A DNA stretch of 64,000 nt, from positions 12,344,009 to 12,408,008 of the forward strand of contig CM044955.1 of the NCBI GenBank assembly GCA_024516035.1. Reading direction: 5' to 3'. A model generated the notes under the pieces. That model did not search any database, had not been told where the DNA came from, and was given only the letters and a program-made list of their open reading frames with translations. This document shows positions 19,693-43,137 of this stretch, in pieces. Source of the DNA: Bactericera cockerelli. Its lineage: Eukaryota; Arthropoda; Insecta; Hemiptera; Triozidae. Position numbers and translations under genes: made by a program. Numbering within the stretch: the stretch's first letter is position 1; the number at the start of each line of letters is the position of its first letter.

Positions 19693-19752
19693 CTTTCTAG
19701 ATGTTTGACTATATCTTCATACGCCGCCCTACAGTTTTCCCATATGCCCGAT
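19693..19752 (-). CDS. dac: dachshund exon C (60 bp internal exon)
   Basis: On the minus strand a TTCTTGCAG acceptor precedes the exon (cag at 19755-19753) and a GTAAGT donor follows at 19692. The exon supplies one base to complete an Arg codon begun in exon B (CG|A), then 19 codons reading S-G-I-W-E-N-C-R-A-A-Y-E-D-I-V-K-H-L-E, and ends with AG of the next codon (phase 2). From my knowledge of the family, this SGIWENCRAAYEDIVKHLE segment is a highly conserved block of insect Dachshund between DachBox-N and DachBox-C; I know of no other family with it. The phase fits exon B exactly. The next exon, expected to continue with R-L-R-E-E-R-like sequence, is not in the window. Dac is a nuclear transcription cofactor acting with Eyes absent and Sine oculis in eye and leg development. 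No lesion is visible in this exon. Confidence 0.93.
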
Positions 19753-23742: not shown

Positions 23743-24006
23743 TGAAATATGGCTGAAATAACGGATGATCAAACTTCCGGAGAGACATAGATGTCAACTG
23801 TTTGTGCAACTATAAGGCCTTTCTCAATTAATCTAGAGGCTGATGTTTGTGAGGTTCAATTCACACGCAAACACATTGGTATAAACTCATTTTTTATCGA
23901 AGTTCACATTTTAAATATGTGAAAAATGGCTGAAATAACGGATGATCAAATAATCCTGAGTCATCTGCTCCACCAAACTGTTAGAAGCAAGGAAGTGTCC
24001 ACTCAC
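19753..24006 (-). other. dac: dac intron between exons B and C (4254 bp)
   Basis: Bounded by GTGAGT at the exon B end (24006-24001) and TTCTTGCAG before exon C. Mostly unique-looking AT-rich sequence. 19753-23425 shows no element I can name, apart from a few A-rich tracts. The part nearest exon B contains the duplicated block listed separately and two poly-A runs (23581-23599 and 23711-23740). Confidence 0.85.
23426..23953 (+). repeat. Scrambled direct duplication next to the exon B donor
   Basis: Block 1 (ATCTAGAG..TTTGTGAGGTTCAATTCACAC.., 23426-23512) recurs at 23831-23920. Block 2 (ATGGCTGAAATAACGGATGA) occurs at 23741-23775 and again at 23921-23953, directly joined to the second block 1. 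The first block pair is separated by about 230 bases containing two poly-A runs, so one explanation is a ~400 bp duplication followed by insertion between the blocks. The second copy ends about 50 bases from the exon B donor. Confidence 0.75.
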
Positions 24007-24226
24007 CGTGCCAGGGCCTCGATGTTGGGCAGACTGCCGTGGTGCTTGAGAAGGGCAGCGGCGTCGTGTCTACTCAGGCCGGAGTGAGGAGGGAGCACCC
24101 CGGGGGGTGTGCCCCCACTCTGCACCTGGTGGTTCATTTGCTGCAGGAATTGGAGCTGACTTAGTTGCGTGGGGGGATGGTGGTAGCCGTTCGCCAACAG
24201 CGGGGATTTTTCTAGTCTAGGAACGT
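24007..24226 (-). CDS. dac: dachshund exon B (220 bp internal exon)
   Basis: The minus-strand acceptor is CTGTTCCTCCTCCTGTGTTCTCAG, of which the last bases ..TTCTCAG abut 24226, and the donor is CG|GTGAGT at 24006. The exon supplies two bases to finish an Asp codon started in exon A (G|AC), then 72 codons opening V-P-R-L-E-K-S-P-L-L-A-N-G-Y-H-H and closing S-L-P-N-I-E-A-L-A, and leaves CG for the Arg completed by exon C. The composition (Gln, His, Pro and Leu rich, with Q-L-S-Q-L-Q-F-L-Q-Q-M-N-H) is the low-complexity linker expected between the two Dach boxes, and LPNIEALAR running into SGIWENC is the conserved insect Dac join. No in-frame stop. At about 60% GC it contrasts with the surrounding AT-rich intron. 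An internal ATG upstream of the acceptor is intronic and is not a start. Confidence 0.92.
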
Positions 24227-24479
24227 CTGAGAACACAGGAGGAGGAACAGAAAATAAATAACACTAAAATGATTTATTTATTTACACTTTATTAGGACAT
24301 CTATATCTATAAAAGAAAGCTGTCTGTATGTATGTGTGTGTGTGTGTATGTATGTATGTTCTTTATACAAATCCACACCGTTTGACCGAGAAACCTGAAA
24401 TTTTGCACATAGGTCCGCTTGGATCAGGAAATTCTTCTAGGCTAGATTATATCTCCCTGAGGTTAAGCTACAATGAGTA

Positions 24480-24910
24480 AGGATAAAAATGGATAGGTGA
24501 CGCAAAAAAAATGCACGTTTTTTGACATAAATGACATTTTTTCTCGAAATTTGTCGCGACGACCTATCAACTCAAAGCGAGAAAGTTTTAGGCAAGGGCT
24601 TGAGCTTTCAATTGACATATCGATCGCGAATTTCTGATGAGCCGTTCTTGAGCTACGCCGGGTAAGGTAAAAAAATGGATGGGTAACATGTAAAATATTC
24701 ACGTTTTTTGACCTAAATGACATTTTTTCTCGAAATTTGAAGTGACGACCTATCAACTCAGAGCGAGAAAGTTTTAGGCAAGGGTTTAGGCTTTCATTTG
24801 ACATATTGATCGCGAATTCTGATGAGCCATTCTTGAGCTACGCCGGGAAGGCCAGAAAATAGATGGGCGACAAAAAATATTCAGGTTTTTTTTCAAACCT
24901 AAATGACATT
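24480..24910 (+). repeat. 186 bp tandem repeat inside the Helitron (about 2.3 copies)
   Basis: AAATGACATTTTTTCTCGAA recurs at a spacing of 186 bases (24529, 24715), and a third partial copy begins near 24850 and is cut at 24905-24911 where the GT repeat takes over. Each unit contains GACCTATCAACTCA, AAAGTTTTAGGCAAGGG and GAGCTACGCCGGG. The abrupt replacement by GT repeat suggests microsatellite expansion within the third unit. Confidence 0.85.
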
Positions 24911-25038
24911 TTGTGTGTGTTGTGTGGTGTGTGTGTGTGGTGTGTGTGTGTGTGTATGTGGGTGTGTTGTTGTGTATGTGTGGTTGTGTGTGTGTTTTGG
25001 TGTGTGTGTGTGGTGTGTGTGTGTGGTGTGTGTTGTGT

Positions 25039-25076
<38 letters not shown>

Positions 25077-25173
25077 GTGTGTGTGTGTGTGTGTGTGGGG
25101 TGTGTGTGTGTGTGTGTGGTGTGTGTGTGTGGTGTGTGTGTGGTGTGTGTGTGTGTTGTGTGTGTGTGTGTGT

Positions 25174-25215
<42 letters not shown>

Positions 25216-25269
25216 GTGTGTGTGTGTGTGTGTGTGTTGGTGTGTGGGGTGTGTGTGTGGTGTGTGTGG

Positions 25270-25300
<31 letters not shown>

Positions 25301-25543
25301 TGTGTGTGTGTGTGGTGTGGGGTGTGTGTGTGTGTGTGTGTGGTGTGTGTGTGTGGTGTGTGGTGTGTGTGTGTGGTGGTGTGTGTGGTGTGGTATGTGT
25401 GTGTGTGTGGGTGTGTGCGTGTTGTGTGCGTGTGTGTGGGGTGTGTGTGGGTGTGTGTGCGTGTGTGTGGGTGTGTGTGGATGTGTGTGTGTGGATGTGT
25501 GTGTGTGGGTGGGTGTGTGTGTGCGTTGTGTGTGTTTGATGGG
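24911..25543 (+). repeat. GT-rich (CA on the gene strand) microsatellite, ~630 bp
   Basis: Long imperfect GT repeat with TGG and TTG interruptions. It yields open frames of more than 200 codons (Cys-Val rich on plus, Thr-His rich on minus) that are artefacts. In the dac pre-mRNA it would be a CA-rich tract about 690 nt upstream of the exon B acceptor. Confidence 0.97.
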
Positions 25544-25606
25544 CTGGCGAAGCGGCGGGTGTAACCCGCTAGTATTATATACAATACAAATAATTACAAA
25601 TTAAAA

Positions 25607-25720
25607 TACAGTATAATAGAAGAAAAAAATAAAGAATAAATAAATAAATATAACATAATATGTGTCCTAACTAAAGGGCAGGGTTTTTACCTTTGGCAAT
25701 CTCTTCCACCCAACCCTTTT
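25607..25720 (-). repeat. LINE-like 3' tail fragment (copy 1)
   Basis: On the minus strand GGTTGGGTGGAAGAGATTGCC is followed by CCCTTTAGTTAGGACA and then an ATTTATTTATTTATT-type tract. The same two blocks, in the same order and with similar spacing, occur on the plus strand at 30551-30605. Two copies with a shared 3' body suggest a non-LTR retroelement 3' end; the family is not identified. Confidence 0.55.
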
Positions 25721-26501
25721 AATGATAGTATTTAAATTATTTTTTATACAAATTTAGACAAGTTTTCTTTACAAAAGTAGATACACACAATGCCTACAAT
25801 GTTAAACAATAAACAAATCGTAATTAGCTGAATAATTATTTAAATAATTGTGCTAGTACGTCATGTACAGAAACAAAAGTCTCAGTTACTTTCCCACCAT
25901 ACTCGAGACTCTAGAGTCTACACTAGCTGAAACGAGTAAAGAAAAAATTGATAAAAAAATCAAAAGTAAAAAAGATACCGCAATGAATGCAAATGAATAT
26001 AATGTAAGACATAAGATCCACAATGTGAATGAAGTACTTGAAACCTAATACTTTGTATCTTTTCTTTTCATGTTCGGTTGTATTTATTTGAAGTAGATAT
26101 AATTGAAATCGGCAAAGTAGAAAAAATATTAAAAATGAAATCAAGAGTGAACATATTGTAAAGAAAAAGAAACCACCATGGAACAATGCATCAAACCTCA
26201 TAACTGTATCTTTAACGTGTTGTAAGTTTTCGTTCTTTGATGTGAATGCATTCAAAGATTATAAAAAAATACACACAAATGTAGGTGAAGTTGTACATCA
26301 AGAGCGCATTCATAATCACATTATTCCATTTGGAAACTTCCAATAATTTAAACTCTATAAGTGAAATAGTTATACAGTGACACAGACCAGGGGTGTGGAA
26401 AAAACAACGAGATATATAAAAAAATCAATGTAGATTTTCAGCTTTCGTCTGACTTCATTATGAAAAAACATTGTCTCGTTAATCACTTGACTATACAATG
26501 T

Positions 26502-27019
26502 ACACAGGTAGTCAAGTGGTTAACTCTTTGCGGCACGGTGGTCCCAAGGAGGACCACATAAAATGGGACCCTTACTGCACGGGCCCTCCTGACTTGTTGT
26601 GCCCTGTGAAAGCTACGACAATGTCCGACTACAGCCAAAAACTTTTATCCAATAGGAAGAAGCTTGAGTGGTCCCTGGCTGAGTGAAGCGTGCTGAGACG
26701 ATACTAAAGACAGTTCTCATATGGACCACCGTGCAGTAAGGTACATTTTCCAAGTGGTCTTTCTGGGGACCACCGTGCCGGAAAGGTTACTAAAAAAAAT
26801 CCGAGCTGTGCCGCAAAGAGTTACGCGCTAGTCTGGTAATCCAGGTAGCGTAGGGATCCGTTGGTTCGAATCGAATCCCGTGCATAAATTTTTCCGCATG
26901 AATTTGAGTTTGTGACCACAGAATAATAAGACTCTGAGGGTTAGGTGGTAGAAAATGCTTTGAGCATTAACCTCGGCTACTGGTTTCCTTCAACTAAAGA
27001 GTGTTCTTATTATTATTAT
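26502..27019 (+). mobile_element. tRNA-derived SINE (family A), split by a nested MITE
   Basis: GGTAGTCAAGTGGTTAA (26507-26523) is an A-box-like tRNA start. The remainder, CGCGCTAGTCTGGTAATCC...GGTTCGAATC... and the SINE body down to an ATTATTATTATT tail, resumes at 26821. The intact copy at 44179-44345 has the two halves joined directly. The body then shows the TTTGAGTTTGTGAC and ACTAAAGAGT blocks in both copies. Confidence 0.8.
26524..26820. mobile_element. piggyBac-type (TTAA) MITE nested in the SINE, 297 bp
   Basis: Terminal inverted repeats CTCTTTGCGGCAC (26524-26536) and its exact complement (26808-26820). It interrupts the SINE exactly at TTAA: TTAA stands to its left (26520-26523) and TTA, with the last A lost, to its right, whereas the uninterrupted SINE at 44 kb reads GTGGTTAACGCGC. 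TTAA target duplication is diagnostic of piggyBac. Sub-terminal inverted motifs (CACGGTGGTCCC / GGGACCACCGTG and CTTACTGCACGG / CCGTGCAGTAAG) add a second layer of pairing. No coding capacity. Confidence 0.85.
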
Positions 27020-30000
27020 GAAGCCCTGTCTCTAAATCACAAGCTTAATGGTCAAGCTATGCATATCCTACTTTTTGGTTTCATTTGTCAGTGGCTTACT
27101 AAAACACTGTAATAAAACTTTCAATTTGACAACATTGGACAAAGTCTTGGTGTTAAGAGTTTACATAAAATTCTATAACATATTGCTTCCAGTTATGAAC
27201 CGAGACCGGAAATGTCTAGTGTCGAACTTTGAAGAAAGAACAATCATTGAGGAGATGTCCATCATTTATCTATGCATTAGTTTCAGAATAGACTCTCTGA
27301 ACATTTTCATCAAAGGGAAAGCAAAGCACTAAACAACAGTTCAGACTGACTATTTTCTTGCGAATACATTAAGTAACGCACAGATTTATGCTATCGAGCA
27401 AGAGGAACACCTACCAAGAAGTGGAGCGTGCTCACATGTCAGATAACATTCTTGTAGATAAAGTTTCAGAGGAATTTCTGCCTTTGAGTTAGAGCGAGAG
27501 CTCTGTTCAAAAATAGTCCAATATGAGAGAAACGTTATTGAAAATTTCGTGTTTCAAGAACCAGTAGATCAGTTCGTTTAAATTTGTTAAGTAACCAATT
27601 TATAAATACTTTTTATTCTAGAAAATGCCTAATCTTTATATATCTTTACCTAAAGCAGGCTGAGAAAACAATAATGAAATGATTATTTGATTATTATCAA
27701 TGACTAAATTAATTTGTACAGCATGATTATATGTAAAGGTAAGTAGGTATTTTTTTTTACACCACTAATAGGAGATGATAATGCTGTTGAAGAAAGAAAA
27801 TGTGCAGTAATATGGAGGAAGCAAAGAGCTAAGAGTCTCTGATCAATGAGGCAAAAGAGACCTATGTTAACACTAATCTACTTCCCTTGTATCGATCAGG
27901 ATTTAATTATTTGGACCCGCTCCAAATATGAATTAAGGATTTATATGGATTAAGGAGGTTGCTTTTTCCTGTGTTACCGGTGATCCTGTGATCGTCCTGC
28001 GGCTAATGCATAAAGCAAAGCGCACGTGACCACACAGAAAACTAATTGCAGTGCAACGTATTACATCAGGTGCTTATTACAGGAAATCGGTACTCTGTAA
28101 ATGGTCGCATAAAATGTTACATTAATGTAGATATACGTTATCTTAGAGAAGTCCAATTTCATGTTTTTTTTTTTAAATAATGAAACATATTAACTTTTTG
28201 TTTATTTTGTTCTTTGATCGAATTCGTTGTTTGGTTCATCTTACGCGTATTTTCTTGACTAATTGACATATTACCTGAAATGTATATGTACCAGCAAAAA
28301 CACATGGAGGAGCCTATGAAATGACAAACCTATGAATTACACGAACACTCAATGCATAATTAGTATGGAATACCAAGATGATTTAACCTGCATCAAGTGA
28401 ATTTGTAAATGCATGGATAGGTAAGTAACTGCTGGGCATAACTAACCTTAAGAAATGTTTATATTAAATATACAGATACCAACACATTTATGTCTATATA
28501 AGTGAGTATATTTATACTAAGAATAGTGTACGCTGTGCAACCTTGAGAAAGAGGTACAGACAAATGTAGAATTGATCAAAATAGTATAAGTAGGTACGTA
28601 TACAATTATATGGGAATAAGAAATGTTATCTTTGAACACAGACAGACGGACAGACAGTCAGACACAAAACTTGATATGAACCTAAGTCCAGATAATAAAG
28701 TACTTGTGTTGGCGCGTATGTGATTAGAAGGAGTGTAGATACTTCAGTTCCAACTTGGAACTGTAATTATTATGTAAAAGTTTTGACCTAGTATGGTATA
28801 AATTTCAAGCGAAGAATTATATGTTTAGTAATTCAAGATCTTGGAGTTCATATGGAATGGAGACTTGAGTATATCATTTAATACAATCCTTAGGAGTGAA
28901 TACTATTTAGCCATGTCAGGGGTTCACAGAATTTTACTTGTGGAAAACAAGCGCATCTTTTCTTTGTGATAATGCCAAAGCATCTTTACAACAACCAGAT
29001 ATTTTTGAAACAAACCAGATATTTTTTAATAACAAAATAACAGACCAGATATTTTTTTTAGTTGATATTACTTCATTACAGATATTACTTCATATAACGA
29101 AATGTGGCATTAAAATACGTGTTCTTCAAATATGAACGCCTTTACTATCAATATTTCTATTCTATAAATTTTGTGAAAAACGTCGCAATTGTGTGAAATT
29201 ACGAAATCATAAATTCTTTGGGACGCCGAGCGCTCGAGTAGCATTTTCAGAGGCAGTTGCAGGTATAACATTCCATTTTTCTACATTGAAATTAAAAAAA
29301 AATGTAATTGAACTTTCTGTAATACTCGTATAAACATTGAACTGACTCAACGTTAAAAGTTTCAACATGAAGCATCCGCATTGAGATATTTAGATTCTCA
29401 AACAAAATTTCGGTTTCCATTTCTCTTTTGGCAGTGAATAGTTAATTAAAATAATAACACACACAGGCGCTTTCCACATTGAATTCTCAAGACATCAATC
29501 ATAGCCGTCAGCAAACTTGTCAAGGGGAAAGCAGAATATCTTCTCGCCCTCTCTCTCTTATTTTTTACGAATATACTGAGAGGGATGTAAATTATTAATA
29601 TTTTCCTAATTAGACATTATTGTGGTTTTGATAATTTCAGCTTCGTTCCGAGTTTTTTGTTTTCCACCGCCGCGCCGCTCTCATTACTGCATTCATTCCA
29701 AATCTCTCTGCTGAGTTCTTTAATAACATTCTCGCTTTAATTAAATTCATTCTCCTTCTTCTCAATACCGCACCAAGTTCTTGCTTGCATTTCGCTGTCG
29801 AATATGATTTTTTTTTTAACAGGGCTACTAAATCCAGTCACACTAAGTCTTTTAAAGTTAATATTATTTAATATTAAATTTGAATGAATCACTAAATCAA
29901 TCTAAATCATACATGTAAAGACGTCATTGTTAATATTTTTGGATTTGATAAAAAATACATTAGTCGATTATTGAATTTCAAAAAGTTTTATACAACTTAA

Positions 30001-30550
30001 TTCCTCTTATTCAAACTTTATTTTTCATCTTTAACCTTCTCTCCTTTAGTCTGAAACATTGAACTCAACTAATAGTCTTCAACTTCTTTCTTCTCTCTGT
30101 TTCTGACAATGTTGTCTGCGATCCTTCTAAAAAGTTTATGATTGCGGATGCATGTTACATTCTGAATATTTAGAACCGTATGCCTTCCGAGCTGCGGACA
30201 ATTATATTTGTATAAATAAAAGTTATGAGAAAATAATCCTCGACCTGGCTGGTGCAGCATTTTATATCTGTGAGGAGAAATTTATGTCTACAAAATTGAT
30301 TGTTCCCTTGTTCAGGGTGGATCACTTGCACCCGCCTACTTGTCAAAAAATAATGACCGAGTAAATGAGATTCTCAACAGGGTCGAGCTTTGTGAAATAT
30401 CATTGAAGGTTGTGAGGATCTTTCTACTCAAGACAAAATCTTCCTGTGTTGATAAATACGAGTATATTCTCTTATCAGTTATACTTATCCTAAAAAAGTT
30501 TCAAACAGGAGTAGGTGCCTATATGATTCTTATGAACAAACCCATAAGAC

Positions 30551-30755
30551 GTTGGGTGGAAGAGATTGCCATACACAATAACCCCGCCCTTTAGTTAGGA
30601 CATATATGTCTATATTTTGTTTATTTTTTTTTCTTGTGTTATATTAATATTGCCAACTTTGTATTTTAATTTTTATCATTATTGGTTTTTACTATTATTG
30701 GTACAATATATGTTCTACTAATAAAGAGTTTCTAAATAAATAAAATAAATAAGGC
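30551..30755 (+). repeat. LINE-like 3' tail fragment (copy 2)
   Basis: Shares GTTGGGTGGAAGAGATTGCC and CCCTTTAGTTAGGACA with the minus-strand copy at 25607-25720. It ends in AATAAATAAAATAAATAA near 30734-30751, a typical simple A-rich non-LTR tail. The 5' limit is unclear; there is no RT motif in the preceding 400 bases. Confidence 0.5.
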
Positions 30756-31887
30756 GTGTCTACCTACTAAAATAGAATCTTATTTTCCAAACAATCATCA
30801 ATTCCACTAACTTATACTGAAATCTTGAAATTTCAGCAAAAATACAGAAATATCAGACATCCTTAATCTCCCAGGCAAAGCCGTACTGTTTGGGCAATAC
30901 TGTATTGGCAAGTCCGCTCTACAATTATACCTATGCTATTTAAATTGTATACTTAGCACAACTGATATCTTTCCATTTTATTTTATTTTGAGATTTCTTT
31001 ATGGCAATAAAATTATGCTACAATAAGAATTATAGCTCACTATTAATTTTATACATTCTATCTGTACAGTTTGAACGCATTAACCCTGTCCTGGATGGCT
31101 ATCAATTTTTCATTTTTCCCATGGATTGATTTTGCATGATGTCTAGTCACCTGGCCGTTTATTGAATATTATCATATTTCAATACTTTCCGTAGTATTTT
31201 AGGTATGTTTATACCAATACACCAGAAATATGTTTAATATACATAAAACTTGGTTGTAAATCACTTCTTATTTATTTCATTAAGTTTGTACCAGTAATGT
31301 GGCAACATTTTACGACTAGTATCTAAAGAGTCTAACAAAATCTTTTTCTATTAGTCACACAAAACCATTTTCACCTTGAAGGGGTTAAAATAAACATTTG
31401 AATTCGAGTGTAATAAATAATATAATAGCTGAACCTGATGCAGAATTATAAAAAGCCTATAAAATTCGCAATTGCAGTACCATACATACATGGTCATAAC
31501 ATCATGGCCCACAAGGGGAAGAGACATTGGAAAAGAAAAAACAATTTTTAATAAACATTTTATAGGGGTCAACCTGTGGGTTCAAATGCAACATGGGAGA
31601 AGACTCCAGCTATATATACGAAGTTGGGTATGTACATAAGTTTAGTGCGTGTCCACTCAAGAACAGAACCTAAAGACTTTTTAAACAGATTTTTGCTACA
31701 TTTTTACTTACCACTATAGACTTTGTTGTTCTTCGTCTGCTAAAATCATTCCCTACTCAGGCGGGGTCAATACCTTTCGACCGTCTCTACTAATCTGATC
31801 CTGGATTAGATTTATTAATTTCTTTTGCTCGCTTAGAATTTTGAATCCATCATTTCCTTTGATGCACCATTTTCATATATTTTATTA

Positions 31888-32587
31888 CTTCCGAGAAATT
31901 TCTAATATTAGAAATCGGAAGTATTGTGTTCGTTTTTGTAAAAAAAAATATTTTTTTGCTCCGATTTCAATTTTTTTCAGATTTCTGGACGTTTCATAAC
32001 CTCCTGAGCAAATTTGGTTTTGTGTCTGTCTGTCGGTCTGTCGGTCTGTCGTTCTGTCGGTCTGTCGGTCTGTTAAAACGATTCCTTGTAACGCGCAAAT
32101 CTCGGAAACTACTCGACCGATTTTGATGAAATTTTGCACACATCTAGGAGACATTCTGTAGATAGTCCCATTTTAAATTCATCGAATTCGTACTAGCGGT
32201 TCTTGGTGAAAGAGCCCATGCGCCTGACCACTAACTTTTTACTTAAACGCTTATATCTCGTGAACGGTACACCCGATTTTAATGAAATTTTGTGTGTGTA
32301 TGCATATAATTGTTTTACATAGGCTATTTATATATATTTTTTAATTAATTATAATTAGACTCTGATATTTAAGAAAATCCGAAATTTTGGACAAAAAAGT
32401 CAAAAAATAAGGACCACGACTTGCCGATACAGAAATTTTTGTGGTATCTAGAATGTAGAAAAAACGATTTTCTACCATATAAAACAAATTTGAAGAAAAT
32501 CAGTGCAGTCGTTTTGGAGATACAAGTAATTTAGTATAAAATCTCAAAATTGGCACGTGTTAACAATGTGAAACAATCACGAGGAAG
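31888..32587 (+). mobile_element. 700 bp repeat with short inverted ends (copy 1)
   Basis: Ends are CTTCCGAGAAATTTC (31888 on) and ...CACGAGGAAG (32587), so only about 5 bp are inverted, flanked by TA on both sides. An inverted copy lies at 57625-58307 with the same ends. Internal landmarks are a GTCTGTCG simple repeat (about 32022-32072), CTCGACCGATTTTGATGAAAT, and GTGAACGGTACACCCG. The flanking TA could be a Tc1/mariner-type duplication, but the second copy has AA on one side, so the superfamily is unresolved. Open frames through it are low quality and not genes. Confidence 0.7.
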
Positions 32588-35554
32588 TATAGAGTCCATA
32601 ATTGGCAGTGTTTTTTTTTATTTAAATCTCACATCGACTTCATTTTCATAAATTATTTTGTCATTTGAAATCAATGACTTATGCCTGATTCTGTCACTCT
32701 GATTCCATTTCTTTGATAATTAAAATCTCTTGTATTGCTTATTTTATAGCATGTTAAAAACAATACACCTCTCCGACATCTCCTGCCTAAGCTCTGAATC
32801 CTGAATACACATCATGGTGAAATTTTTCATTGAAATCCATTAAATATTTCGCAATAAGACCGATCAGTAAGGAAGTGAGGATCATGTAGGCCGTGTAGGC
32901 ACTGCAGAGAAAGTCACACCAAAAGCAGACATCAGATTGTCCCGACTGGATCGAATCTATTAAGACTTGTGATGTGTTGGGACTTCACGAACAGACGTCT
33001 AAACATTCCTCTGATGTTTCCTCCAGGTACATTAATCATCGCATGTGTGTACGAATTTGACACCATCTTAATTAATGACCTCCTTGATGTGGACCCCGGC
33101 ACAGAGTAAACAAAACACCAGGTTATTGTTCTTAAACAATCTAGCACTTAGTCTGGTGTTGGATACTGATCTAGCATTAATTCTGGTGTTGGATTTCTAT
33201 TAGGTGGATAAAGTGGATATCCATTATCTTGCATCGATCTTCCATCTGATCTCCACCAAGCTTGAGTCCAGCATTGTTCCTGGATCTAAGGCATTCTTCA
33301 AAATCTTGTATATATCGGAATAGTCATCATGACAATTTGTGTTTACACACATTACTCAAATGTACCAGCTTGAAGTTGACGTTTGAATTGGTTTATTTTG
33401 TTTAATTATGGCAAAATATTTAGCTCATATTCATTGCCTAAAAAGTTTGGTAAGTTACTGAAATTTTTATATACGAGTATTTCAATTCCACTACTTTCTA
33501 AATTCCCACGAAGTTTTCGAAAAGCGCCAAAACTTGGAAACCCATTGCTATTATGATGAGATATTATGAAAGTAGCATTGCAAACCTTTATTGACAAAAG
33601 AAACAAAGTCCCAACAACAAGAGAGAGACAAGTGAGTAACAATCAAGCAATGCAGGTTCCTATATTAACATTAATAAAAACAATGAACCACTCCAGAGCT
33701 ATAAACAACATTCAATATATGAAGGAGACTGCAGGAACTGTTCCCAACAACAATGACACTGACAAATTCAATTGAAATGAAGTACCTTTTAATTAAGTAC
33801 AATCACATAACAATATAAATACTTTTCATACAAATATCATCAGATTTAATTGAGCCATTCAAGTATGCTGACGCTTCCTTTGTCCTTTCAGTTGTTATTC
33901 TGTAGGCTTTCGATGTACACAGAACAGGCCTTTTCATTCACATCGTTGGAAGAATTGAGAGTGAATATGGTTTTTTTGTGAATAAATTAGAGAGTAAAAA
34001 TAAAACACTCATAATAAGTATATCTCAACGATAAAATGACCTTATCTATAAACGTAATATTTTCCTGATAACGGAAGTTATGTCCGAATATTCCATTCCG
34101 ACCAAAGTTTAAAGGCTGCACCAATCTATCAAGTGTCGATACAGCTTAATGCTCTAGTTCGACCTTTATAACACACGTAGGAAGATCAAAGACTATCATG
34201 CCACTGTTGAAAACAGCCGTGAGAGGATTGACATTAAACAGAAAAACCAAAATTACAGAGATCAACCAAAATTCAGAAGCAGGACTACTAGTGTGTATTA
34301 ACATGATCTTTCAGTCTGATAATAAATTTTATTGATGCCACTGGACACCAGGGTTTTGCTACAAAGTCAGACATCTCCAAGATGTTGTAACAATAAAACC
34401 CGGTGCGGATCTGAAATCCCAAACAATTACATGGTGGACAGGTTTGGAATCTGGTAGCATGAAAACATCGACCTGGGAACCTCTTCCAACATAAATAATA
34501 TATTTAATACATCAGTAGTTTACAAATTGCTCTTAAAATCGTAAAAAAAGAACATGTTCTCTCAAATCTCATCATTCAAATTACCATTATTTAACACAGA
34601 AATGTTGTTGATAAATTAGTATAATTCAAGAATATTATGAACAGATATGTCAAATGGTGAGGTTTTTTCTTCGTCTGCATTTCGATTTGACGAGTATTCG
34701 GCATTATTTATGACTCGAAGAGTGACTTCTTTTCTTGAGCACCTTCCAGAATAAAATGATTATTAATTTGGCAAAATCTGGTGTCGCACAAAGTTTCTCA
34801 ATTCTGCAAAAGTTAACTCTGCAACTCCGGTTTGAAAACCCAACAGATTGTTAAAAAATGATTAAGTGAAGAATAGTTTGGAAATAAGCATTTAAGAGTT
34901 TAAATAATGACAAATCTCAACATACTATATTTTTTAATTGTAAAACTCTATACAGGGTGTAACAGACTAAATGTAAAATCTCTTAAGGGGTGGTAGTATA
35001 GATCATTTCCAACCATTAATGTTCTATAACACTTTTGATTTAACTCAGTGGTTCTCGAGATATTATTTTTTTGAATTATTTTTACAAGTCCCCTGCCGCT
35101 CGACAAAGAATGGCATCTAACTCCGTAAATACAGTAGATGAAGCAATAGATTTAACTTTTTCCATAAGATAACAATATTTCACTATTATTTAGACTAGAT
35201 TTATTCTTAAAAAGTGCACACGTACTGAAAAAAATCGGCAGCAGCGGAAAATTTATCGCGAACATGAAATCCACCTGAAACTTCAGCCGCCATTTTCTCA
35301 AAATACTGCCCTCATAAAGTATTGGTTTCATTTATGTAAAAACTTGCTTGAAGTCTTATCTTTCAGAAAGTATGACACACTTGATATAAAACTTTCATTT
35401 TTTATTGAAACCAAGAGAAATAAAAAAAAGTCAGTCAGTACTACTAACTGTACCTACTAGGCTACCATCCTACTTTTACCTAGGGAACTAATTTTTTTCT
35501 TCAATTTGACAAATTATGGTTGCCATTTATTTTCCAACGGCCCAAAAGTTTGCC

Positions 35555-35620
35555 TCAATAGACTCTTAACTTGGAGGTCACTGGTTCGAGTCTCAAGTGT
35601 GGCAAATTAGTATGTACGTA
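35555..35620 (+). repeat. tRNA-like SINE relic in the left foldback arm
   Basis: CTTAACTTGGAGGTCACTGGTTCGAGTCTCAAG carries a B-box-like GGTTCGAGTC (35583-35592). The right-arm counterpart at 36265-36345 is longer and retains the 5' half (GCCTCAGTCGATTCATTGAT) that is deleted here. Its presence in both arms means the SINE was there before the arms were duplicated. Confidence 0.6.
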
Positions 35621-35890
35621 TTCATGTATGATACTTTTAGCTGTGATGCTTCAGAAATCAATATTAATCGTAATTGTTTATTTGTTCATAAGAGGAAAGG
35701 GTCTCAATGATAAAATGGTTTGAATGAAATGAAACATAACAATGTACCTACATAGTTAACACCCACAGGTAAAGGTGGTACGGTAAATACTGAACATTCA
35801 TAGGTTGGTACATAGAGGTACAAATTATTATGTTAGTAGGTACCGAATTTTAATAAAACACATGGAATACTAAAATATTAAGGTCAATTA

Positions 35891-36193
35891 GTAGTCACCG
35901 TGGCAGAGTGAGTTAGCGTGCTAGGCGTTGCACGCATGGTGACCTGGGTTCGATCCCCAGCGGGACAGGAGTTTTTCTGCTCTGTACTTGGATGTTCGGG
36001 GTCCACTCATACCTCGTGAGGAAAAATGAGTAGTTACTTGTATGAGTAACGACCAGTGGCGGCATTACCAGAGTAAAAAGAAATTAATGTAATAGAATAA
36101 TTCGAAAAGTAAAGGAGGCTCTTAGTAATGCTGCGCTACCCACAACAAATGTGAAGAGGCCTTGTGCTTCACCACAAATAAAACCATACATGC
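35891..36193 (+). mobile_element. tRNA-derived SINE (family B) with a 24 bp target duplication
   Basis: The head GTGGCAGAGTGAGTTAGCG...GACCTGGGTTCGATCCCC has A-box-like and B-box-like elements. The body includes GTACTTGGATGTTCGGGGTC and CATACCTCGTGAGGAAAAAT, and the 3' part includes GCTGCGCTACCCAC. It is flanked by a direct repeat ATACTAAAATATTAAGGTCA(ATTA) at 35867-35890 and 36194-36217, the target-site duplication of LINE-driven retroposition. Related copies lie on the minus strand at 38865-39212 and 55885-56139. Confidence 0.88.
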
Positions 36194-36261
36194 ATACTAA
36201 AATATTAAGGTCAATTAATCACGATCGTGGTGTCACAATAGCTCAAACTCATCTTACTAAA

Positions 36262-36345
36262 TATTTGCCATACTTGAGACTCGAACCAGTGACCTCCAAG
36301 TTAAGAGTCCGCAGCCTTATCAATGAATCGACTGAGGCTAATTTT
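36262..36345 (-). repeat. tRNA-like SINE relic in the right foldback arm
   Basis: Minus-strand GCCTCAGTCGATTCATTGAT...GGTTCGAGTCTCAAGTATGGC has the spacing of a tRNA-like head. It is the mirror partner of 35555-35620 and the less deleted of the two. Confidence 0.55.
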
Positions 36346-37134
36346 TTGGGCCGTTGGAAAGTAAATGACAACCATAATTTGTCAAATTGAAGAAAAAAAT
36401 TAGTTCCCTAGGTAAAAGTAGGATGGTAGCCTAGTAGGTACAGTTAGTAGTACTGACTGACTTTTTTTTTAGTTTCTCTTGGTTTCAATAAAAAATGAAA
36501 GTTTTATATCAAGTGTGTCATATTTTCTGAAAGATAAGACTTCAAGCAAGTTTTTACATAAATGAAACCAATACTTTATGAGGGCAGTATTTTGAGAAAA
36601 TGGCGGCTGAAGTTTCAGGTGGATTTCATGTTCGCGATAAATTTTCCGCTGCTGCCGATTTTTTTCAGTACGTGTCCAATTTTTAAGAATAAATCTAGTC
36701 TAAATAATAGTGAAATATTGTTATCTTATGGAAAAAGTTAAATCTATTGCTTCATCTACTGTATTTACGGAGTTAGATGCCATTCTTTGTCGAGCGGCAG
36801 GGGACTTGTAAAAATAATTCAAAAAAATAATATCTCGAGAACCACTGAGTTAAATCAAAAGTGTTATAGAACATTAATGGTTGGAAATGATCTATACTAC
36901 CACCCCTTAAGAGATTTTACATTTAGTCTGTTACACCCTGTATATGAATATTTATTATTTAAAACGTGCAATTGAAATATTTCCTCTACAGTCACTACTC
37001 TCTTTTCCAATGACCAATTCCATCTTCATACCCCAACAATGGCTCTCCACTCCTCCATCTTCTCCTAGCTCTTCTTATGTACTGGCTGCACGCACGCTGA
37101 GCAGCAATGGAAATTTTGGCTCGTACCCATCCTA

Positions 37135-37235
37135 ATGCCGGGTCCACACTAAGCGAACATTGTTAGCTAACAATGTTCGCGAACACACTGCGAACATTGT
37201 TAGCTAACAATGTTCGTTTAGTGTGGACCCGGCAT
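37135..37235. mobile_element. 101 bp MITE with two nested palindromes
   Basis: ATGCCGGGTCCACACTAA at the left is complemented by TTAGTGTGGACCCGGCAT at the right. Next to each end lies CGAACATTGTTAGCTAACAATGTTCG, itself a palindrome, so the whole unit can fold as one long hairpin or as two side hairpins. There is almost no divergence between the arms, which suggests recent activity or gene conversion. A target duplication is not clear. Confidence 0.88.
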
Positions 37236-38864
37236 AAGAGGATTGCAGAGCCTTTTATTCCATTTATCAACATACTATTTATAGTTCCTATTCTCAATGA
37301 AATCTTGACCATTGTGAAGAACTTCACAAAACTTTCAGAACACAAGTCAACGACGGGAAAGCATCAGACATCATCTTAAACTGTAAAAATAATATGAGTT
37401 CCTATGTCATTTTTTGAAAAATAATTCCATCGCACAGCGGGACACCTACAGAAAGTTATGTACCGAATAATTTCAGTTCATTAAAATAAAATCTAAAAGA
37501 AATATTTTTATATTTCCTTACCAATTTGGAGTGCACAGAACACCAGAAGCTCAAATTGAAAATATTTTAATTTGCTCAATGTCTTGCTTCTGTTTCTCGT
37601 TTGCCTCACCGCCGACTCGCATCACTCTCATGACTTTATTTTTGTCGTCATATTTTCGCCATGACCGATTAACATACTCGTAGCTCCAAGCTTAGCTCGG
37701 ACAATCTTGCACAAACATATTTTATTCAAAATATCCTTCGCTCTGAACTGTGTGGAGTGGCTGAATAAATCTACATCTTTATACGCGACATGAATCAGTT
37801 GCGTTTTACTATTTTCAACACAATTAGTTATTTATGTGGTAAATAAATATGCTAAATTTAATGGGCTGAAATTCAGTCAACCCGCGTCCTCAAGGTAGCT
37901 AATGGAACCAAGTAGTGTTAGTGTTTGATATCAGTTGGAGTACAATTTACAAGCTTATGGTTTAGTTCAATATGTATTAGTAATGAGTTAATATTCATTT
38001 GGTTTACAACTGTTACACCTTGTATATCACGAAGTCACATACCAGGTTGTTAGGAATTCGGCTATCTTTTGATGAATTTCATTACCACATGGATTATTTT
38101 ATTCACAACTTTATTCCTAATACTCTGCATGGCAAGAATTTTATTGAAAAGGCTTAGAATAACACCACGTATAGGATAGGTGTTGGTATGTGTTGGATGC
38201 AGCACATATTCAACATTCCAATCCAATTTGTTGAAACAAAAGAGCGTTACCTATATGTACAATGTACATGCACTGGTGTGTGGTCAAATGTGAACTAATA
38301 TATGTAGTCAAGTGTGTAACTTTGAGCTTGAGCATGTATGGATATCCTTTCGGAAAGTAAAAAATATTATTAGAATAACCTTGTGTTTTGTTACATTAGC
38401 AAGAGGGTGTCTACAATTTACTCAACATGCAACATGATAATTTTATGTGGCCAAACAAAAATTATCTTCTTAATAATATGATCTATTTTGCACCTATGAA
38501 GAATAAAATTTAGACTGCCAATGTAACAGGTATTTTCAAGACTCATTGAACTCGTAAAATGGTAATGTACAATACATGCCATGAATACATAACATCGTTT
38601 AGAAGCAGTATATATCGTCAAAATCCAGCATCTACAATAGTCTACATACAATTTACTCATTTTGTTTATTTGTTTTGATAAAAAATTAACTTCTCACTCA
38701 TCTCAGATTGTTGCCTGTTTATCTTTCGCACAATCTTGGGAAGAGAATTGGTTGTATCGTGCAGGAATTTCGACAGAATAGCGCAGCACTTTCCCCCAAA
38801 AAAATATTTAATAACTAATAGAATTAAATAATAAGAATAAATATATTTTTTGTGTAATGAAAAG

Positions 38865-39212
38865 ATAATTTTAGTGGCAGCGCAGAGTTAGGGCTTCCTT
38901 AGACTTAGGCGGAATTATAACGTTTCTAATACCTCGTGGCTAATCACGGTTGCGTACTGTATAGATGGAATCGCACTTCCAACACTTATTATGATTTTAT
39001 TAATCCGCCTAATATTCCTATATCTTTCTAAGCACATATTTTTGCCACGGGTCGCTGTTCAAGTGTTCACATGAAAGCATCAGATCTACCACGAGGTAGT
39101 GGACCCCGTAACACACAAAGATAAAGACGAAAAAATTCCAAACCCGTTGGGAATCGAACCCGCAGCACCGGGTGAGTAAGCCGAGTGCGCTACAACACTG
39201 GTCGCAGTGCCT
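38865..39212 (-). mobile_element. tRNA-derived SINE (family B, minus strand)
   Basis: The minus-strand head ...GTTGTAGCGCACTCGGCTTACTC...GCGGGTTCGATTCCCAACG (39119-39205) is tRNA-like with a clear B box. The body includes GGGGTCCACTACCTCGTGG, echoing the family B body, and the 3' part ends CTGCGCTGCCACTAAAATT, matching the 3' block of the 36 kb and 55.9 kb copies. The middle section is longer and diverged. Confidence 0.7.
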
Positions 39213-40494
39213 GCTCTGAATATGGAGTTCCGCTTGTTGAGAGGAAAGCATTCTCACTCGTAGTGGGTGGGTGTTTTGGTTTGCATTTGGGAAAATGATT
39301 TAAAACGACTAAATGATTTGAAAAAAGTTAAGTAGAACTAACTAGTATTTGTGTTAGTTTATGAATTATTTGCACCATATTTAATTTACAGTTAGAATGG
39401 CAGTGCTAAGCTAATGGTGATCATGAACCCAGCAGAGGATATACCATATTTTTAACCATTAAAGAGTTTGTAAAGGGTCACTCACTAAAAGCTATGTTAC
39501 GACATGGTACGTATCGCAGTGTTGATGTGTGTACAAAACAAATCTGTTGCAAAGCTACGAACATGAATTAGAGCAAGAGAAACCACGCGAACATTAGAGC
39601 CCAACAGAGTAAATATATGATCCTAAGTTGAATGTAATCTTCTTCAAATATTTATATGTTAATAGTTTTATTAGTTTTTAATGCTATATATTAATCCGGA
39701 ACGAATACAATGGATTTTAATTGTTTTTTCTAATTCGAGATAACATTTTGTGTTAAAATTTATACACTTGTTTTGTTTTTCATATTTTCCTCGTGTTCAT
39801 TCATTGAAATTTTTATCTTGAATGCTGACAGTCTGTCTGGGTGCGTGAACAAACAAACAACCTCCAGGGGAGACCCAAAAATGAGGTCTGTCCGTGAGAA
39901 CGGAATAAGAAGACAGAACTTCATTCCGTCGCAAAGCCTGGGTACAAATATTTTAAAGAGACAAATTGCAATGCTCCTTGAGCGAAATATACAAACCTCT
40001 TGAAATGCAACGAGAAACGCCGATATCGTTAGAGACTACTCCGCTATTGAAATAACAATACAGTGTAATACACTTGAGGTGTAGTTTAATGAGAAATAAT
40101 TAATTACTGCAAAAGCTTTGTAAAACAATGTCCCATACAAAAGCTACGTATAATTACTCTGAGACCTCTGGAAACCCTCACGTCTCACATTGTAGCACTG
40201 CCTCGGAGGTGTCCATGTTATTTGATACATGAGAACAATCTCGACAACGTACAACAAGTGTCACCGAGTCGACAATCACAATCAGAGCCATTATAGAGTT
40301 TAATATTAATAACAGTACCTACCGACTAACTCGGCATTGATTGTTTCTCACAGGAAACGCTAGTTAAAACATACGAATCTCCCTTCAAATAAACACATCA
40401 CCTCTTGAGTTCCCTCTCGTGTGCCACGGTGAGTCGACGTACACCGAATGGTAACTCAAAAGTTTTGAACTGACGTAACAGAGGGCCGGTGAAA

Positions 40495-40562
40495 GCGATA
40501 CTTGGGACTCGAACACCGACCTCCGGTCAAAAGTCTTATCGATCGAAGTACTGAGGTCGCGG
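40495..40562 (-). repeat. tRNA-like SINE relic
   Basis: The minus strand reads GCGACCTCAGTACTTCGATCG... to ...GTTCGAGTCCCAAGTATC, tRNA-like A and B boxes of the same loose group as 16915 and 36262. Confidence 0.5.
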
Positions 40563-40854
40563 TGATACAAATGTATTTGGAACTATTTAGAGCAGTAAAC
40601 AAGCACTTTTTCACTTGAAACCACTGAAAAATACGTAAAACTGAATTGTTGAGCAGAAAACTTCGTCACAATAAGCACAACTGTGCGACCAAGTACCATC
40701 AAGTAAATGTTAACATTTTACCCGCCTGTCACGGTAAGATATAAGTCAGCTGTATTAAAGTGATAACTATGCACCATACATTAAAGGTTAGTTATAATGC
40801 TCAATTGCTCATGTTGAATACCGATAATGTCACACCTATTCTAATCCACGCCAA

Positions 40855-40920
40855 AAATTTGCCAGACTTGGATCTCGAACCACGGACATCCAGGGATTCC
40901 TAATCGACTAAGGCCGAAAT
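40855..40920 (-). repeat. tRNA-like SINE relic
   Basis: The minus strand has TTCGGCCTTAGTCGATTAGG... and GTGGTTCGAGATCCAAGTC. It is diverged, but the two blocks are correctly spaced. Confidence 0.45.
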
Positions 40921-41654
40921 ATGAAACAGGATTAGATCAACTATACTACACTATCCCTTAACACACCCTTAGGTGGGAATTCCAAACATATCACAGGCAT
41001 TTATATCAACTGTGAAGTGCGGTAGTGGCTTGGATTAATAAACCCTAGAGATCCGGTTTCATTATTTGGCTCTAAACTACAGAGGTCCAAATCTCTCCGA
41101 TAACGAGACACGAGATACAAGTAACCTCGTATGGATTGATGAAGGAGCTGTGCTTTCATACATTAAAATTAGATGATGAGAATGTTCTGTTCTTTTCTAA
41201 AAAATAAAAAATATATCTAACCATGTTATACAAAAAACAGAGGTCCAAATTGATGTTCATAATTTGGCTCTTAGGTGAAAATTGATCTAGTTGAACCCTC
41301 AATTTGGACGCTGGACCAGAACAGGTCGGCAATACAGATTAATAGAGGAGAAGCGCATTGTTTCCTGCGTCAATTACTTCTGTCAATCCTCACGGCCCTC
41401 ATGCGAATTCTGTATCATTCAATTAAAGGCTTCGACCGAATGACGTAGGACCTGGCAGAGTGTACACAATAGGTGTATATGTCACTATAGATAGGTGCTT
41501 CTGCGGTGCAAAAGAAATCATATTTGTGTTATCACAATCGCCATATCATAATTACTCAAACTTTAAGCCCAAATTTTTGTTTTTCTCGTTATATTTGAAA
41601 TTCGAACTATTTTATAAAATATATTATGACCTCAAACCTGCCTTTACAAATTTT

Positions 41655-41728
41655 TGTCCGTACCTGGGACTCGAACCATTCACGTCCAGGTTACGAGTTC
41701 GCAGCCGGCACCGTATTGATCAGATCTG
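41655..41728 (-). repeat. tRNA-like SINE relic
   Basis: The minus strand has ACCTCAGATCTGATCAATAC... and ATGGTTCGAGTCCCAGGTAC; the plus strand shows 'TACCTGGGACTCGAACC'. It lies within 1.2 kb of two other relics, forming a small cluster. Confidence 0.5.
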
Positions 41729-42109
41729 AGGTAGAATCAATAAAGTAGAAACAATACAAAATAGGTACAATACATAACAATTTATAAACCTACTTCCTTG
41801 ATAGAAAGTCAGCAAGTATACCTATAGGTAACACTGAAAGTGTTAGTTAACTTGAATAGATAAGTTAAAATCAATATCGCACAGAAGCCTTACACACAAG
41901 GCATAATGACAGGGGTCCTTCATTAAAATAAACTTTAAAGCAAACAAAAAAGTCACTCACTGGAAAATTCAAAGGGAAAGATAAACACCAGTCACTCACA
42001 GTGGAAATATACAACACTTGGATAGCAAATAGACAAACAAACAGACAGACGTGTGAAATGAAAACCATGTGAACGAAATTCGAGTTGACTTATTTACAGG
42101 ACTTAATGA

Positions 42110-42170
42110 GCTTATTGGTAGAGTGGATTCGCAACTAGGAGTCTGGGGTTCAAGTCTGAGTCGAGGTCAA
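42110..42170 (+). repeat. tRNA-like SINE relic (plus strand)
   Basis: TTGGTAGAGTGGATTCGCAA...GGGGTTCAAGTCTGAG gives A-box-like and B-box-like blocks, followed by TTTTTCCGCAGGAACAT, resembling the TTTTTCCTCATGAAT step after the head of family A. It ends about 140 bases before the exon-junction array. Confidence 0.5.
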
Positions 42171-42300
42171 TTTTTCCGCAGGAACATAACTCCAGAAAGC
42201 ACACTCAATCTTAAAATTCCCGCTTACATATGGTTTTTATGAATCTTTTGGCTTCTTGCACCATGGCCCAAGTGTCTGAAAGCCAATGGTATAAAACCTA

Positions 42301-42650
42301 TGTATAAGAAAATCTACTCACCATTTTGAAGGTGGCCACTATAGAAAATTAAAGCTATGTATAAAAAACCTACTCACCATTTTGAAGGTGGCCTATAGAA
42401 AGTTAAAGCTATGTTATAAATCTACTCACCATTTTGAAGGTGGCCATTACATAAAGTTAAAGCTATCGTAAATTGGAAGATTCTCCAACCGTATCTTTGT
42501 AAGGTGGCAACACCGTATAGCCAGTTAAAGCTATGTATATATAAAAATCTACTCACCATTTTGAAGGTGGCCATATAGAAAGTTAAAGCTAGTATATAAA
42601 ATCTACTCACCATTTGAAGGTGGCCATTATAGAAAGTTAAAGACTACGAA
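42301..42650 (-). repeat. Tandem array of the dac exon A 5' splice junction
   Basis: On the minus strand GGCCACCTTCAAAATG followed by GTGAGTAG, i.e. the last 16 bases of exon A plus the donor, is repeated at 42625-42603 (one T of the run lost), 42572-42549, 42445-42422, 42393-42370 and 42337-42314. The true junction is at 43011-42988. Units are about 52-60 bp apart, with a larger gap around 42446-42548 occupied by a diverged unit, and are joined by a shared spacer (CATAGCTTTAACTTTCTATA). Copies 42603 and 42422 share three more exon bases (AAT). Every copy keeps a consensus GTGAGT donor. The array lies 0.35-0.7 kb downstream of the real donor in the direction of transcription. Confidence 0.92.
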
Positions 42651-42995
42651 AAAAGGATTACTCCCTACCATATGTTTGTATGCGGGATTATCCTTTCCTT
42701 GCAATGTGCATGATGCACATTTTTTTGTACTGCTTCTGCCCCAAGACAAAGCATTTTCTTCCACAAAACTACAAAATTCGCTTTATTTATGAAAAACTCT
42801 TCGTCAATAATCCTTCTTACTTAAAGTTTAAAATAAAGATTAGAAAATGTTTTGCAATTTGAATGCCACCGGAAGATACCAGTTACAAAACCATTGTGCT
42901 GTCAGAATTTAGTTCAACATTGGCAGCGTACGCCATGCTACAAATGAAAAGCGCTTGGAAGAAGAGGAAAGGTAGTTGTAATAAAATCTACTCAC

Positions 42996-43137
42996 CATTT
43001 TGAAGGTGGCCATTGGGGTAGTCGCCGTAGTCCGAACCCCCGTTCTCCAGCCGGTGCTTCTTCAGCTGATGACTGAGATGCGACGCGGCCAGGAGAGGCC
43101 CACCGAGGCCCTCTTAGGCGGCCGGCCGGGCCTGGAG
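42996..43137 (-). CDS. dac: dachshund exon A (142 bp) with a one-base deletion
   Basis: The minus-strand acceptor is ...CTCTCTACGTTCGCAG (ag at 43139-43138) and the donor is ATG|GTGAGTAG. The exon enters in phase 2 and reads S-R-P-G-R-P-P-K-R-A-S-V-G-L-S, the basic AT-hook-like motif that directly follows DachBox-N in Dachshund proteins (vertebrate DACH1 has the same SSRPGRPPKR). At 43092/43091 the frame breaks. Continued literally it hits TGA at 43064-43062; shifted by one base it reads L-A-A-S-H-L-S-H-Q-L-K-K-H-R-L-E-N-G, then on to N-G-H-L-Q-N and a trailing G that joins exon B as Asp. One missing C, turning CTCTCC-CTGG into CTCTCCTGG, explains this. The corrected length of 143 bp gives the phase exon B needs. 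A sequencing or assembly error is more likely than a null allele, since splice sites and the rest are intact. Confidence 0.92.

Follow-up and report, generated by a model that had tools for sequence, protein, structure and literature searches.

Splice donors in gene-resident minisatellites

A minisatellite in the human IFI6 (6-16) gene reportedly supplies splice donors, as Turri et al. are said to have described in 1995. In an excerpt from PMC4526556, two downstream repeat units of IFI6 are given as splice donor sites in use. A second comparison is offered by CeRep25B of Caenorhabditis elegans, which excerpts from PMC4039745 present as a mostly intronic minisatellite family with clusters on chromosomes III and II, units that hold splicing-regulatory motifs, and a possible influence on splicing. 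Here, we describe an array in the dachshund (dac) gene of an insect that resembles IFI6/6-16 in being an in-gene tandem repeat with sense-oriented splice donors in its units; it differs in that the downstream units of IFI6 are reported as used donors, whereas those of dac are predicted ones, with a unit of ≈54 nt and a start ≈340 nt from the true donor. Insofar as the excerpts characterize CeRep25B, the dac array shares with that family an intronic position and a possible link to splicing, but it is confined to a single locus in our searches and derives from a junction of its own gene. Given the IFI6/6-16 precedent, the dac array belongs to a known kind, a minisatellite that provides splice donors, of which it is a new and probably unused insect case; a literature search with the terms used, within one library, returned nothing on such an array in dac. 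We favor, with a probability of ≈80%, its reading as an intronic minisatellite that arose from a duplicated copy of the exon A junction, expanded by tandem duplication and is probably neutral, which is also the best supported of the meanings that a first-pass annotation of this DNA had proposed. If neutral, the array would be a clean natural example of a minisatellite born from an exon–intron junction, one that leaves a developmental gene with strong cryptic donors, and would offer a natural test of how far exon definition ignores five equal competitors. If functional, multiplication of a donor would be a way to tune splicing or the U1 protection of a long intron.

The host gene and its exon A donor

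A homology search with the peptides of two exons, A and B, returned 49 insect proteins at E ≤ 0.001 among 78 candidates, including proteins from Dendroctonus, Polyplax, and Eretmocerus, and six of these insect proteins were used to place exons A, B, and C by tblastn. Like the first-pass annotation, we take the gene to be dac. All positions below are those of the window (the whole 64 kb stretch of DNA analyzed), and the gene lies on its minus strand. Exon A (42996–43137, 142 nt) ends in CAA AAT G at the junction and supplied the exon bases found in the repeat units; its donor, GTGAGTAG, occupies 42988–42995. The following intron (24227–42995, phase 1) holds the array and leads to exon B (24007–24226), which has a phase 1 acceptor and a donor GT at 24006; exon C (SGIWENCRAAYEDIVKHLER) was placed at 19693–19752. 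The length of the intron, 18,769 nt, agrees with the 18.8 kb given in the first-pass annotation, which also had the strand and the true donor at 42995 right. Translation that continues in frame past exon A reads GGT GAG TAG, with the stop inside GTGAGTAG at 42990–42988, and use of any distal donor would therefore truncate the protein.

Exon A carries a one-base frame break near 43092 on the minus strand, with SRPGRPPKRASVGLS in one frame and LAASHLSHQLKKHRLENGG and what follows it in another; the corresponding segment is uninterrupted in the 43 of the 49 relatives that show it. A genome search found no second exon A, which makes an error of assembly or sequencing the probable cause of the break; the alternative is a real lesion. 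The same intron also contains a TG/CA-rich stretch of low complexity (24789–25568), open in several frames and near the exon B acceptor.

Structure of the array

The array (42649–42292, minus strand) consists of six head-to-tail units of ≈54 nt, within the 10 to 100 bp or so that is typical of minisatellites, with successive spacings of 54, 58, 68, 54, and 54. Tandem Repeats Finder reports it at 42294–42642 with a period of 54, 6.1 copies, 78% matches, and a score of 378. Five of the six units contain intact or near-intact the last 16 to 19 exon bases plus GTGAGTAG of the exon A donor. The exact 24-mer GGCCACCTTCAAAATGGTGAGTAG (minus strand), which is GGCCACCTTCAAAATG joined to GTGAGTAG across the exon/intron boundary, occurs at the true junction (43011–42988) and in four units, and the fifth differs by the deletion of one A; within the window, on both strands, GTGAGTAG is found at the true donor and in these five copies and nowhere else. 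The matches of the five units to the junction extend over 31, 31, 30, 34, and 29 nt at 97 to 100% identity and comprise 16 to 19 exon bases and 12 to 15 intron bases. The source segment that is identical to array DNA spans 31 nt (42983–43013, minus strand), with 18 exon and 13 intron bases.

From 5′ to 3′ on the minus strand, unit 1 (42596–42649) has its donor GT at 42610 (position of the G, here and below) and is the one with an A deleted from its exon part; unit 2 (42538–42595) has its donor at 42556. Unit 3 (42470–42537) is degraded and lacks GTGAGT, and it contains the near-palindrome TTGGAGAATCTTCCAA, which forms a local hairpin in the predicted fold. Unit 4 (42416–42469) carries a donor at 42429; unit 5 (42362–42415) carries one at 42377, with TATAG directly 5′ of its exon-like part; and unit 6, taken together with the array end (42292–42361), carries one at 42321. 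The RNA of the array folds no more stably than shuffled sequence (z = +0.81; 80 of 100 shuffles equally stable).

These data bear out much of the first-pass annotation, which described five copies of GTGAGTAG preceded by 16 to 19 exon bases and lying 0.35 to 0.7 kb beyond the true donor; the measured distance from 42995 is 385 to 674 nt. Its five sites are the right ones, but each of its positions is 8 lower than the donor G and corresponds to the base after GTGAGTAG, and an array described as having five members in fact includes, in addition to the five donor copies, the degraded unit at 42537–42470.

Genome searches place the array at a single locus

We searched the 565 Mb assembly (1032 contigs) for further copies. 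A DNA search, which skips common words, matched array DNA only to the array itself and the true junction, and an exact 20-mer from the spacer occurs once in the assembly. With up to three mismatches, the 24-mer occurs seven times; five of these occurrences belong to the locus itself, one at the true junction and one in each of four units. The reversed 24-mer, used as a control, gave none. The genome search and these counts against the reversed control exclude a chance origin of the copies. The two remaining core matches are C2 loci that are ≈90% alike, share 19 to 20 nt with the core, and are single copies with no array; the pair would represent one coincidence around the start-like context CAAAATGG. 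A dispersed repeat or transposon family was considered and set aside, as neither the DNA search nor the spacer 20-mer found array copies elsewhere. Within the window, no copies of the other dac junctions (the exon A acceptor, the exon B acceptor, and the exon B donor) were found at E 0.05.

Proposed origin of the array

We propose that a segment of ≈30 nt from across the exon A/intron junction was copied to a site ≈340 nt downstream in the intron, presumably by a short templated insertion or a template switch. Of these, we favor a short local templated insertion, a class that an excerpt of PMC11724301 describes as ≈2 to 35 bp long and direct or inverted; the copied stretch of 29 to 34 nt fits this size range. 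Joined to ≈20 nt of AT-rich sequence, the junction copy would have formed the ≈54 nt unit, which tandem duplication may then have multiplied to six, with one unit later decaying. The consensus donors would thus be passengers of the source segment. We consider the array most likely to be neutral or very slightly harmful, because an exon A of 142 nt, bounded by its own acceptor and the true donor, should normally be preferred over the exons of 527 to 816 nt that would end at the copies.

Conservation within the unit and origin of the spacer

We compared the spacer and core portions of the unit in three ways, all of which leave out the degraded unit. Substitutions affect three of 75 sites in the spacer body and none of 119 in the core (Fisher P = 0.056; P = 0.16 when the one deletion in the core is counted), and hand counts that include indels give 7 of 100 versus 1 of 120 (P = 0.025). 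In a test applied uniformly to the 14 of 28 local arrays (see below) with a period of at least 25 and at least three copies aligned, with insertions ignored, the best half of the dac unit (five units aligned) has a conservation of 0.985 and the worst half 0.926. The difference of 0.059 has a shuffle P of 0.21 and is the third largest among the 14 (range 0.009–0.091), with the second lowest shuffle P. The unevenness within the dac unit is thus no good evidence for selection, and the cruder counts are borderline.

Judging from alignments, the spacer may have been copied from the true intron start and have since diverged. In the genome search, the alignment of unit 5 to the true junction reached beyond the core, covering 52 query bases at 83%. 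When anchored on the donor, the match of the spacer consensus to the true intron start was equaled by 4 of 700 random intron positions, and those of four single units by 11, 39, 133, and 5 of 700. The score of the spacer consensus was reached by 47 to 53 of 1000 shuffles and by 10 of 904 other TTTTAT sites; across the four spacer versions, shuffle controls reached the observed scores in ≈1 to 6% of cases for three and ≈10% for the remaining one, and the number of TTTTAT sites that did so ranged from 10 to 52 of the 904. End-to-end alignment of the spacer to the intron start was equaled by 62 to 72 of 1000 shuffles, and free local matches between the spacer and the junction flanks by 267 to 430 of 500. 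Anchoring on the exon side gave matches equaled at 486 and 578 of 700 random positions. The anchored tests are therefore suggestive for the intron side only. Such homology, if real, would imply that intron bases diverged while the donor bases were kept.

Donor strength and alternative readings of the array

Donors were scored by a simple calculation of duplex energy with the 5′ end of U1. At −10.8 kcal/mol, the true donor and its five copies share the top value among the 1069 sense GTs of the intron, followed by two sites at −10.7 and one at −10.4 kcal/mol. Five of the six units thus hold sense-oriented consensus donors of the IFI6 type with U1 pairing equal to that of the true donor; the tie follows from the identity of the copies to the true donor and is by itself no proof of use. 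GTRAGT occurs 10 times in sense in the intron, the true donor and five copies included, versus nine times in antisense, and hence there is no wider enrichment.

These energies speak for functional decoys, in which the five copies would bind U1 and compete with or delay the true donor, thereby tuning dac output; their use by read-through would meet the in-frame TAG in the donor and lead to a truncated or degraded mRNA. The near identity of the unit cores and the stop in GGT GAG TAG fit this scheme as well. However, the sites at −10.7 and −10.4 kcal/mol are unrelated to the array and show that strong U1 matches are not specific to it, core conservation is not clearly above that of other arrays, comparable clusters of donor motifs exist elsewhere, one of the six units has no donor, and the extended exons (527–816 nt) compare poorly with a true exon of 142 nt. 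We regard functional decoys as quite improbable, although the decoy donors named in the first-pass annotation do tie for the best U1 match in the intron. About as improbable, in our estimate, is a maintained bank of sites. In this reading, the gene would have duplicated its exon A donor five times, and the copies would serve as U1 sites along the 18.8 kb intron, either competing with the true donor or supporting it; the core would stay constant and the spacers, as diverged copies of the intron start, would drift.

That the array is an artefact of assembly seems to us very improbable. The frame break in exon A lies in the same kilobase, with no second exon A, and local base accuracy may therefore be imperfect; however, substitutions and indels distinguish the units from one another, and one of the six is degraded, whereas a looped assembly would give near-identical units.

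A faint prospect at best is telescripting, whereby U1 bound to the array would keep a long intron from being cleaved and polyadenylated prematurely. The strong U1 matches are compatible with this idea, and an excerpt of PMC5499120 lends support from melanogaster. Against it, the 59 sense AWTAAA motifs of the intron are sparse near the array: a single one (42787) falls in the stretch from the true donor to the array, and past the array no other is reached before 40304, ≈2 kb beyond. The array would therefore guard no dense cluster of signals, and nothing observed here speaks positively for the suppression of polyadenylation suggested in the first-pass annotation.

The least credible reading is that of tandem microexons, formed from an AG in the spacer region and a copied donor and adding peptides such as ALTLCNGHLQN (unit 4) or ALIFYSGHLQN (unit 6). 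Open, in-frame exons result from five of the 16 AG-to-donor pairs of up to 60 nt in the array (33 nt in unit 4; 15 nt, encoding GHLQN, in unit 5; 51, 48, and 33 nt in unit 6), but the lengths measured from the spacer xxTAG vary (33 with a stop, 32, 33, 31, and 33 nt), and pyrimidines make up 8 to 12 of the 20 positions before the spacer acceptors and 13 of 20 upstream of the nearer TATAG sites, whereas the true exon A and B acceptors look pyrimidine-rich by eye. The five copies thus lack a constant frame-preserving length and have pyrimidine-poor acceptors, and the weak 32 nt microexons of the first-pass annotation, a length that holds for one copy and not for the other four (33, 33, 31, and 33 nt), are poorly supported.

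Other minisatellites and donor-motif clusters in the region

To place the favored junction-derived minisatellite among its neighbors, we collected all arrays with a period of 15 to 200 and at least 2.8 copies from the 64 kb window plus 200 kb of the same chromosome. These 264 kb contain 28 minisatellites, the dac array included, or ≈one per 9.4 kb; only two of the 28 fall in the window, and a few of them are pieces of one larger array. The 27 others are like the dac array in period and copy number, and the homogeneity of the dac array is matched among the 13 of them that qualified for scoring, falling inside their range; it differs in copying a splice junction, which none of the others, taken without gene annotation, was seen to do. 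Extrapolation from 264 kb implies tens of thousands of minisatellites genome-wide, and with so many arrays some would be expected to start at junctions by chance.

Nine of the 27 other arrays have some match in their 5 kb flanks, five of which were discounted by eye (two sister-array pairs and one T-run). Inspection of the remaining four revealed one array that runs on, two clear detached partial copies (30 nt at 680 bp and 33 nt at 239 bp), and one weak one (19 nt at 1.4 kb); the 33 nt copy looks like part of a larger duplicated element.

Clusters of at least five GTRAGT per 400 nt on one strand were found at three places in the 264 kb when both strands were scanned, the dac array being one. 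Another is a 25 nt minisatellite of 9.8 copies at C1:12007612-12007860 (L004 7612-7860), the reverse complement of which holds six GTRAGT, five of them GGTRAGT; its likeness to the dac array lies in these five GGTRAGT in about ten units. The third, near C1 12135149 (L017), is an AT-rich, partly repeated stretch containing CTAAGTAAGTATAGTTTAC, with seven GTRAGT per 400 nt on one of its strands.

Separately, short COX1-like fragments were observed at 16 places in the genome, on many contigs and all within profile positions 296 to 358; they could be nuclear copies of mitochondrial DNA, or else a chance-like repeat family.
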